Positions 37,506 to 42,750 of a DNA stretch of 64,000 nt are shown here, one piece after another. Source of the DNA: Phormidium tenue FACHB-1052 (GTDB taxonomy: Bacteria; Cyanobacteriota; Cyanobacteriia; Phormidesmidales; Phormidesmidaceae). The notes under the pieces were generated by a model. The model ran no database searches, was not told the origin of the DNA, and worked only from the letters and a program-made list of their open reading frames with translations. Position numbers and translations under genes: made by a program. Numbering within the stretch: position 1 is the first letter of the stretch; the number at the start of each line of letters is the position of its first letter. The stretch covers positions 62,001 to 126,000 of the forward strand of contig NZ_JACJQN010000018.1 of the NCBI RefSeq assembly GCF_014696675.1. Direction: 5' to 3'.

Positions 37506-38795
37506 TCAAATGATCATGCCGTCGGGAATCACCGCGTTCTTCAGCACCACGACAATGCCGCTACGAATGTAGAAGCCCAGGTCTTCTCGCTCGGCCTCCT
37601 GCACATTGTCTTTGTTGACGATCTGCACGTTGCGGCCAATGCGGGCATTTTTGTCAATAATGGCGCGGCGAATGATTGAGCCTTCGCCAATGCCCATGGG
37701 AATTTTGCCCCGAGTCAGGTGCTGGCTGCTCTCCGAGAGCGGCTCGTAGTAGTCGGCCCCCATCAGCAGCGAGTCTTCGATCACGCAGTCGGCGTTAATG
37801 CGCTGGCGCAACCCCACCACCGAGTGGTGAATGCGGCAGTTTTTAAGAATGCAGCCCTCAGTGATGCTCGACTGGGTGATCTGGCAGTCTTGCAGCTTGT
37901 TGGGCGGCAGGTAGCGGGCGCGAGTATAGATGGGCGCGTCTTCGTGGTAAAAGCTGAAGTCGGGGTAGGGCTGCTGAGTTAGCGCCAGGTTGGCATCGTA
38001 GAAGGCTTCGATGGTTCCGATGTCTTCCCAATAGCCGTCGAATAGATAGGCCTGCACGTTGTAATCGCGCGACGAGGCCGGAATAATTTCTTTGCCGAAA
38101 TCGGTTTGGTCGAGGTTCTTACGCAGCAGGTCGATCAGCACCTGCTTTTTAAACACGTAGATGCCCATCGACGCGATGAAGGGCTTCTCGACCGCCTGTT
38201 CGGCGCTGAGGCCAAGGGAGGTGGTGTCAACTTTCATCTGCTCTAGGGCTTCGCCCTTGGGCTTTTCGCTAAAGTCAACTACGCGCCCGGTGCCATCGAC
38301 CTTCATCAGGCCAAAGTCAGAGGCTTGCTTGTAGCCAATGGGCACCACCGACAGGGTAATGTCGGCGTTGGTGGCTCGGTGGCGCTGCACAAACAGGCTG
38401 TAGTCCATGCGGTAGAGGTGATCCCCAGAGAGGATGATGAAATCCTCGACGTTCCAGGAGTCAAACAGCCACAGGTATTTGCGCACGGCGTCGGCGGTGC
38501 CCTGGAACCAGCTAGGGCTCTCAGGGGTTTGCTGGGCCGCCAGCACTTCCACAAAGCCCTCGGTAAACTGCGAAAACTGGTAGGCACGACCAATGTGCCG
38601 GTTCAACGAGGCGGAGTTGAACTGGGTCAGTACGTAAATTTTGTGGATTTCGGAGTTGATGCAGTTACTTACAGGAATATCAATTAAGCGATATTTACCG
38701 GCCAAAGAAACCGCTGGCTTAGCCCGAAATTTCGTTAATGGATAAAGGCGAGTGCCGGCACCGCCCCCTAGAATTATGGCCAGAACTGATTTCAC
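37506..38795 (-). CDS. glgC: Glucose-1-phosphate adenylyltransferase (ADP-glucose pyrophosphorylase)
   Basis: The protein has 429 residues, the normal cyanobacterial length. It makes ADP-glucose from glucose-1-phosphate and ATP, the committed step of glycogen synthesis. The nucleotide loop is [13 protein letters not shown], followed by the sugar-binding signature [29 protein letters not shown], the catalytic region [13 protein letters not shown] (here [15 protein letters not shown]) and a C-terminal left-handed beta helix ending [14 protein letters not shown]. Cyanobacterial enzymes are activated by 3-phosphoglycerate and inhibited by phosphate. The start ATG matches homologues. A kinase gene follows 13 bp downstream. 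Confidence 0.97.
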
Positions 38796-39072: not shown

Positions 39073-40731
39073 TTAAAGTCGGATCACCGACAGCGTGATG
39101 GCGCTGCTGTTGTTTTCGGGAAAGGTGTCGATAAAAAAGGCACAGAGTTGGGCAGGTTCATCGACCTCTAGGGAGAGGGTGTCGGCATGGCCATTGAGGG
39201 TGGACCAGGTGCCATTGACCCAGACGCCAGTCTTTAAATTTGAGACCCGGCCACCGTAGATCCACAGCAGTACCCAGGGCTCGCCCGATTGGGTATCGTC
39301 GCCGTAGTTAAAGGTGCCTGCTTTAATGCGCAGGATGTAGGAGCCTGGATCGAGGTTGCAGGTAGCGGCTACTTGCTCCTGGAGGTACTGCATCTGGTCA
39401 CCCCTGAGCAAGACGGCGTTATGACGACTGTGCACGGTTATGGTTTGAATTGCGCAAGTTTTAGAGACAACAGCAGCGACGTCTCTGATGGGGGCGGGCT
39501 GGGCTGTTGCTGGGTTTAGTACAGGGGCTAGGGCCACATCGTCTACCGGAGCTGCTACCGGGACTGCTACTGGAGCCGCTACCGGAACTGTCTTGGGTGG
39601 CGCAACCGGGGCTATTGAGCGTGACGCTATTGGTTTGCGCTGACCCTTGAGTAGCCACCACAGCAGCCCGCCCAAAACAGGAATACCCAATAGCCACCAG
39701 GGAAACCGCCCTGATGTAGCTGTCTCGGTTGTAGTGCCAGCGGGGGGGACTAAAGCGGTGTTCTGTCCTGAGGTGGCGGTGGATTCAAGCGTCGCAGTTG
39801 GGGCTGGAGGAGCGATCGCGGGCGCAGTTTTAGGCGAGGGGGTTGCTGTCGGTTCTGATGCCTTAGTTGCGGCGGCATCAGCGCTAGTTGGCCCGGGCAG
39901 CTGCATAAAAAAGCCGATCAAGGCCAAGGCGGCGGGAGTGGGGTCTTCGGCGTTGTAGACATAGGCCCGATGTTGGGAGTAGGGGTAGCGCGGGTCGTTA
40001 GGTAGTGTTTGGTGCATGGCTAAAACCCGCACATCGCTGCGGCCCAGCACCTGGGAGGCCACCGCGTAGGCAATGCCGTCTGCGCCCAGGGCCTCGACTA
40101 CGGCTTCGGTGTCGTCGTCATCGACGGGGTCGGCGGTAGAGCCAGTGCCAAAGAAGGCTCCGTCAAAGGCGGCATAGCGGCTCAGGGCGATGCGGGTATC
40201 GCTGTAGTTGGGGCGATCGATCACGCGAATGCGGGCTGGAGCACCGCCGACCTCGGCCCAGTTCCTAATCTCGCCGCGAAACATTCGGGCAAACTGCTCG
40301 AAGCTGAGGCTGCCTTCAAAGGGGTTGTCGGGGCCGACTATCACGGCGATTTTTTCGCGCTCAATGGGTATCTCTACTAGGCCTTGACTGCGTTCGGCGG
40401 CAGTGAGAGGCCGCCCGGCGGCCACAATATCTAGCTCGCCATCGATCAACGCCCGCAGCGCTGCATCGGTGCGGCTAGCCCCGATTTCTACTGAGGCGTT
40501 GGGGAAGCGTTGGAGGAAGCGATCGCGCAAATCCTCATTGGCCAACACCATACTGCTAGAGCCGTCGAGGCGCAGCACTGCATCTGCCGGTAGCTGAGTG
40601 GGAATTGAGACCGGATCGGGCAGGGTGCCTGGGGCCTGGGCTAAAAGGCGATCGGCGGCGATCGGAGAAATCGCCGCTGTGGCCAGCAGCAGCGCCACGG
40701 CCCGAGCCAGAGAAGGTGATTGAGTTGCCAT
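39073..40731 (-). CDS. PstS-like phosphate-binding domain fused to an unnamed C-terminal module
   Basis: The protein has 552 residues. A signal peptide (LLLATAAISPIA) precedes a PstS-like substrate-binding domain at about 50-285 (DGSSSMVLANEDL, LDIVAAGRPLTAAER, FARMFRGEIRNWAEVG). A Thr/Ala/Pro-rich linker and one membrane segment (FPWWLLGIPVLGGLLWWLL, about 345-363) follow. The last ~125 residues (LDPGSYILRIKAGTFNYG, VLLWIYGGRVSNLKT, LCAFFIDTFPENN) are about 50% identical by eye to the whole next-upstream gene product. A periplasmic binding domain joined through one membrane segment to the module suggests that the module lies on the opposite side of the membrane, probably in the cytosol, like a signalling receptor. 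Ligand and role are unknown. It is the second gene of a two-gene operon with a 22-bp gap. Confidence 0.78.
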   Translation of the reverse strand: MATQSPSLARAVALLLATAAISPIAADRLLAQAPGTLPDPVSIPTQLPADAVLRLDGSSSMVLANEDLRDRFLQRFPNASVEIGASRTDAALRALIDGELDIVAAGRPLTAAERSQGLVEIPIEREKIAVIVGPDNPFEGSLSFEQFARMFRGEIRNWAEVGGAPARIRVIDRPNYSDTRIALSRYAAFDGAFFGTGSTADPVDDDDTEAVVEALGADGIAYAVASQVLGRSDVRVLAMHQTLPNDPRYPYSQHRAYVYNAEDPTPAALALIGFFMQLPGPTSADAAATKASEPTATPSPKTAPAIAPPAPTATLESTATSGQNTALVPPAGTTTETATSGRFPWWLLGIPVLGGLLWWLLKGQRKPIASRSIAPVAPPKTVPVAAPVAVPVAAPVDDVALAPVLNPATAQPAPIRDVAAVVSKTCAIQTITVHSRHNAVLLRGDQMQYLQEQVAATCNLDPGSYILRIKAGTFNYGDDTQSGEPWVLLWIYGGRVSNLKTGVWVNGTWSTLNGHADTLSLEVDEPAQLCAFFIDTFPENNSSAITLSVIRL

Positions 40732-40753
40732 GGTAGTATCCCTAACCGCTCCC

Positions 40754-41158
40754 CTAAATTCGCACGATCGAGAGGGTCAGTTCTTCGTCGTTGTCTTCTA
40801 AATAGGTATCAAAGAAAAAGGCGCAGAGGGTAGCGGGCTCTACCACCTCCATGACTAGGGCGTCGTCGTAGCCGTTGAGCGATACCCAGGTGGCATTCAC
40901 CGGCACGTTGGTCTTTTGGTTGATCACCTGACCGCCGTAGATCCACAGCAGCACCACCGGCTCATTGCGCAGGGCGTCGGCCCCATAGCCAAAAGAGCCT
41001 GAGCGAATTTTGACAATATTGGTGCCCGGCTCTAGCTGCGCTGAGACACCGGTTCGCTGCAGCGCCTCCATCTGCTCAGGGCTAAACTGAAAGCAGTTGT
41101 GCTGACCGTGGACTGTTAGATCTGTGACTGTGCACCCATCCATAACTCGGGTCTCCAT
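40754..41158 (-). CDS. Stand-alone copy of the unnamed module, hypothetical
   Basis: The protein has 134 residues, without signal peptide or membrane segment. It aligns over its full length with the C-terminus of the downstream PstS-like fusion: CTVTDLTVHGQHNCF, LEPGTNIVKIRSGSFGYG, VLLWIYGGQVINQKTNV, VVEPATLCAFFFDTY, ELTLSIVRI. The pattern of alternating hydrophobic residues suggests an all-beta fold. The two genes are 22 bp apart and run in the same direction, so the free module may bind or compete with its tethered copy. I do not recognise a named family. Confidence 0.75.
   Translation of the reverse strand: METRVMDGCTVTDLTVHGQHNCFQFSPEQMEALQRTGVSAQLEPGTNIVKIRSGSFGYGADALRNEPVVLLWIYGGQVINQKTNVPVNATWVSLNGYDDALVMEVVEPATLCAFFFDTYLEDNDEELTLSIVRI

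Positions 41159-41250: not shown

Positions 41251-42750
<1,500 letters not shown>

Follow-up and report, generated by a model that had tools for sequence, protein, structure and literature searches.

Two adjacent genes in the window (the whole stretch of DNA that was analysed, 64,000 nucleotides of Phormidium tenue FACHB-1052) share an unnamed module, which is a complete protein in one gene and the predicted cytoplasmic end of a one-span membrane receptor in the other. Our main reading, to which we assign a probability of roughly 40%, is that the module serves a set of glycogen-linked receptors as their binding end in the cytoplasm, with the free module as a soluble partner. The best clue to its function comes from relatives of the receptor, namely from their DUF4912 repeats, from a sister receptor that ends in a pseudo-phosphorylase and from the exchange of that payload for the module.

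A module encoded alone and at the end of a receptor

The features of the gene pair are given in Table 1. The two genes are separated by 22 bp, and their modules are identical at 62/127 positions (49%, with 68% positive; BLASTP, E=1e-42), close to the 50% identity estimated in the original prediction. The motifs VLLWIYGG, LCAFF.DT and TLS.(I/V)R are seen in the pair. As both genes and their order are kept across several cyanobacterial families, neither is a chance ORF.

Table 1 Features of the module pair and adjacent genes in the window
Feature	Position	Strand	Remarks
Free module gene	40754..41158	-	134 aa; without signal peptide; predicted cytoplasmic
Membrane receptor gene	39073..40731	-	552 aa: signal peptide, PBP-like domain, span, linker, module
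Probable Sec signal peptide (receptor residues 1-32)	40636..40731	-	Hydrophobic N-terminus; cleavage near AQA-PG by eye
Periplasmic PBP_like_2 / PstS-like domain (receptor residues 49-275)	39907..40587	-	PF12849, E=1.5e-23
Single membrane span (receptor residues 343-361)	39649..39705	-	Octanol hydropathy -16.7 kcal/mol; basic residues C-terminal
Fused cytoplasmic module (receptor residues 426-552)	39076..39456	-	Aligned to free copy
glgC (ADP-glucose pyrophosphorylase)	37506..38795	-	PF00483 + PF25247; next gene downstream of receptor
GH1 gene	41251..42735		Upstream of module pair

The proposed division of parts, with one gene encoding the module alone and the other a periplasmic binding protein (PBP) domain, one span and the module, agreed with the ORFs, the domain match and the hydropathy. 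The PBP region scored 84 bits against PBP_like_2 (PF12849; cut-off 27). The receptor model had been made to depend on the hydrophobic segment crossing the membrane, and this segment (FPWWLLGIPVLGGLLWWLL, with KGQRK directly after it) is by far the best span in the protein, with a summed octanol hydropathy of about -16.7 kcal/mol versus -3.6 for the runner-up. Signal peptides and the positive-inside rule are established guides to topology, and together they place the PBP domain outside and the fused module in the cytoplasm; the free module, having no signal peptide, is predicted to be cytoplasmic too. The predicted receptor fits the one-span Venus-flytrap plan (signal peptide, PBP domain, single span, cytoplasmic domain), and domain searches found no catalytic or known signalling output, leaving the unnamed module as its C-terminal output. 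A promoter scan returned nothing above chance. A one-span receptor whose inner domain is also made free, as originally proposed, is therefore retained as an architecture, whereas the signalling role proposed with it is conjectural: the module may signal, but binding or scaffolding would be alternatives.

Searches for the module's family and fold

The original prediction knew no named domain for the module, and we found none either: no family covered it in searches of Pfam, NCBIfam, PHROGs and PDB sequences with single sequences and a 57-member profile. SPP1_Dit (the best Pfam match; 2/57 members, E=5.8e-5) and DUF7307 (Pam3 gp33; E=0.3) were rejected as too weak. A LecA-like lectin reading, prompted by the C-terminal FFDTxxxDNxG motif, was not supported, the profile matching no PDB sequence at E<=10, and sequence searches against carbohydrate-binding module and lectin families gave only chance-level CCL2-like and Ig_GlcNase matches. 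The AlphaFold2 model was beta-rich and of moderate confidence (pLDDT 69, pTM 0.64), and a Foldseek search with it yielded generic jelly-roll matches and none at E<=0.001. Strongly conserved residues are W72, W91, N80, N95, D117 and N123. There were no relatives in IMG/VR or in the phage records searched, and a viral origin was rejected.

The module was detected in 50/390 cyanobacterial genomes (an evenly drawn, partial sample in which several loci end at contig edges and the ORF starts of relatives are mechanical); in most of these a free copy precedes a fused one. A search for other fusions, suggested at the outset, found this layout recurring across genera. A distant copy lies on one Nostoc plasmid. 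Four loci (L059:4089-7508, L060:5704-8241, L061:3022-5922 and L062:1711-4863) encode module proteins of 845-1139 aa without a membrane span, which combine two tandem modules, a Ser/Gly-rich stretch, long coiled-coil-like repeats and a conserved C-terminus.

Receptor relatives carry DUF4912 or a dead glycogen phosphorylase

In most fused relatives the span and the module are separated by one to eight DUF4912 domains, whereas the short Nodosilinea receptors, the window's included, have none. By this comparison, the window's receptor is one that has lost the DUF4912 part of the full form (PBP, span, DUF4912 repeats, module). DUF4912 (PF16258) was present in 115/116 cyanobacterial genomes sampled, and its high-confidence AlphaFold2 model (pLDDT 90) has an FN3-like sandwich fold (best Foldseek E 1.7e-4). 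It usually also occurs as a stand-alone protein of ~420 aa with, by eye, an N-terminal SAP/Rho-like segment (e.g. L082:6298-7641). The window's genome encodes three further PBP-span receptors with DUF4912 (L079:8617-12321, L080:8417-11302, L081:7188-9638), so the front end belongs to a family of receptors whose cytoplasmic parts can be exchanged. One of the three has WD40- and TPR-like repeats before a DUF4912-like end (by eye), and another has three DUF4912 domains.

Just upstream of the free module, 11 genomes from several genera and two families (G193, G138, G163, G186, G125, G237, G220, G024, G166, G226, G267) have a gene that ends in a glycogen phosphorylase domain. Wherever the contig is long enough, this gene is a PBP-span fusion, usually with TPR repeats in between; an in-frame TAG interrupts the copy in G237, and the contig of G267 ends within the gene. 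A profile search identified 16 phosphorylases of this fusion type in the 390 genomes (L125-L131, L133, L135-L138 and L142, with L132, L134 and L139 cut at contig ends). All 16 carry I, M or A in place of the PLP lysine of GTGNMK, and all 16 lack both the equivalent of K568, a cofactor-phosphate lysine (rabbit enzyme numbering), and an active-site segment of ~23 residues; each of the three features is kept in 15/15 ordinary phosphorylases compared. The domain is otherwise well kept (identity to ordinary GlgP of about 50-57%), and therefore it is a maintained pseudoenzyme rather than debris. A literature search found no paper describing the module, the function of DUF4912 or such a phosphorylase fusion, and a membrane-tethered pseudo-glycogen-phosphorylase receptor is apparently undescribed.

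The module was present in 14/16 genomes with the fusion versus 36/374 others (Fisher p=5e-12, a value inflated by relatedness); G258 and G310 have the fusion and no module. In five genomes (G155, G355, G210, G349, G367) the receptor at the sister's place ends in the module instead. The PBP domains of these TPR-module receptors, where complete, nest in the clade of phosphorylase-fusion PBP domains (100/99 for the joint clade), so the same receptor carries either payload, module or pseudo-phosphorylase. The window's genome lacks the pseudo-phosphorylase, its three close GlgP matches being ordinary stand-alone proteins.

A sharper form of the main reading holds that the module is itself an alpha-glucan-binding, lectin- or CBM-like domain, in which case the receptors would tether glycogen to the membrane, the free copy would coat glycogen and the pseudo-phosphorylase would do the same job, binding glycogen without catalysis. 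The interchange of the two payloads on one receptor argues for this, as do the retention in the dead phosphorylases of 178/352 positions that never vary in ordinary ones, the beta-rich model and the conserved Trp, Asn and Asp residues listed above, which suit sugar binding. However, the module matched no carbohydrate-binding family or structure, and the conserved tryptophans may be core residues; we consider direct glucan binding possible but somewhat improbable.

Free and fused copies are an old pair

In a tree of 97 module copies (131 columns, with many forks open), the free copies of 30 loci, which span several families and include the window's, cluster apart from the fused copies (88/77), and changes of the free/fused label are far fewer than in shuffles. 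This separation indicates that the pair is old and that both members have been kept side by side for long. By the tree, free and fused modules are an ancient paired duplication retained in linkage, and a recent tandem duplication of the module is rejected.

Linked paralogues that evolve separately would also be expected if the module were an oligomerisation domain whose free and receptor-borne copies co-assemble into rings or a lattice, clustering the receptors while themselves contacting neither glucan nor enzyme. The tandem modules and coiled-coil-like fusions in L059-L062 are consistent with such assembly, and there is a weak, non-significant fold similarity to oligomeric jelly rolls. Oligomerisation alone, however, leaves the exchange with the phosphorylase domain unexplained, and we regard it as unlikely.

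Neighbouring genes

In nearly all Nodosilinea-group loci glgC follows the receptor, as it does in the window; in the Leptolyngbyaceae MAG locus L014 it does not. An association of glgC with the module pair is likely, though the linkage, being confined to one clade, could be chance. Glycogen genes are missing from the surroundings of many loci (L087, L088, L091, L092). Other neighbours include a gene for the mechanosensitive channel MscL directly downstream of the DUF4912-type receptor (receptor B below; L018:9770-10180, L054, L095, L098), a DUF937 protein beside the receptor in eight loci (L053:6389-6916 and seven more), a caspase-domain protein beside the receptor (L048:8568-10853) and an actin-like (ALP_N) gene that diverges from the module operon and is accompanied by a 112-aa partner (L010:4394-5769 and other Nodosilinea). 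The window's genome has no ALP_N gene match, and the place upstream of its module pair is taken by the GH1 gene.

It is conceivable that the linkage to phosphorylase and glgC is historical and that the module serves an unrelated role, such as envelope-stress or osmotic scaffolding; the MscL and DUF937 neighbours and the many loci without glycogen genes would fit. Against this, linkage to the pseudo-phosphorylase recurs across the genera and two families of the 11 genomes, and the payload swap sits on the same receptor, which leaves a purely historical linkage with little probability.

The periplasmic domain and its ligand

The closest solved structure to the receptor's PBP domain is that of Synechocystis Sll0540 (9l8j, E=9.7e-46), which has been called a PstS homologue (PMC11221513, PMC3610870). 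The NCBIfam PstS model TIGR02136 scored 70 bits on the receptor, below its cut-off of 206.6. The phosphate loop R...SGT is absent from the window's receptor, which has RPxxSDTR instead. Among ~60 distinct receptor copies, SGT is replaced by SDT or SET in nearly all (SST in one) and the PstS ASR motif is usually AGR or IGR, whereas true PstS paralogues in the same genome keep SGT (DSGT) and ASR. The pstCAB genes are not beside the receptor, the neighbours being the free module and genes for GH1, glgC, AAA_33 and SBP_bac_5 proteins. With an acidic residue in its anion-binding loop, this domain is doubtful as an ordinary phosphate binder. Glycogen phosphorolysis consumes phosphate, and a receptor that senses periplasmic phosphate and signals through the module, as envisaged in the original prediction, would make biological sense and agree with the PBP_like_2 and PstS-family matches, but the altered loop and the lack of a kinase, cyclase or other catalytic output make it very improbable.

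A proposed receptor set tied to glycogen

We propose that one-span receptors with an external PstS-like domain carry the module at their inner end as a beta-sandwich domain for binding in the cytoplasm. Ancestrally, the set would have comprised three parts: receptor A, the free module and receptor B. Receptor A would consist of PBP, span, usually TPR repeats and then either the dead glycogen phosphorylase or the module; receptor B would consist of PBP, span, FN3-like DUF4912 repeats and the module. To judge from the linkage of the free and fused copies, the free module would most likely bind its receptor-borne counterpart or compete for that counterpart's target, acting at or close to glycogen or one of the glycogen enzymes. 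A small periplasmic ligand or an envelope contact could then adjust where, or whether, glycogen is used. The window would hold a reduced set without receptor A and with a receptor B that has lost DUF4912, leaving the free module, the short receptor and the adjacent glgC.

The binding role and the link to glycogen are suggested by the payload swap and the pseudo-phosphorylase. More tentatively, several cyanobacterial lineages may possess an undescribed form of envelope-to-glycogen control, with paired flytrap receptors (one bearing the pseudo-phosphorylase, the other the module on FN3-like stalks) and a free module partner positioning or gating glycogen as the response to a non-phosphate ligand in the periplasm, of which the window would hold a reduced form.

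The coupling of glycogen storage and use to external conditions is a central issue in cyanobacterial physiology. The trade of the module for a dead glycogen enzyme hints at a link between envelope sensing and carbon storage; a receptor family ending in either payload would connect the two in a new way and offers concrete genes and proteins for its study. The FN3-like prediction is a first structural idea for DUF4912, a domain of almost every cyanobacterium sampled.

Comparison with known systems

BvgS/EvgS-type sensor kinases are one-span receptors with a Venus-flytrap ligand domain, and the receptors described here likewise have a PBP-like domain outside, one span and a cytoplasmic output. 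They differ in that the output is a beta-rich unnamed module, DUF4912 repeats or a dead phosphorylase, and no kinase. With PstS (TIGR02136) and Sll0540 the receptors share the type of PBP domain, which aligns over the full length of Sll0540; unlike PstS, it is fused to a span and a cytoplasmic payload, has no adjacent ABC permease partner and carries SDT in place of SGT. DUF4912 sits between span and module in most receptor relatives and is missing from the window's receptor, and its FN3-like fold is unlike the module. The C-terminal domain of the sister receptor shares about 50-57% identity with ordinary cyanobacterial GlgP (PF00343), but it is tethered to the membrane and has lost the PLP lysine, the cofactor-phosphate lysine and the ~23-residue segment.
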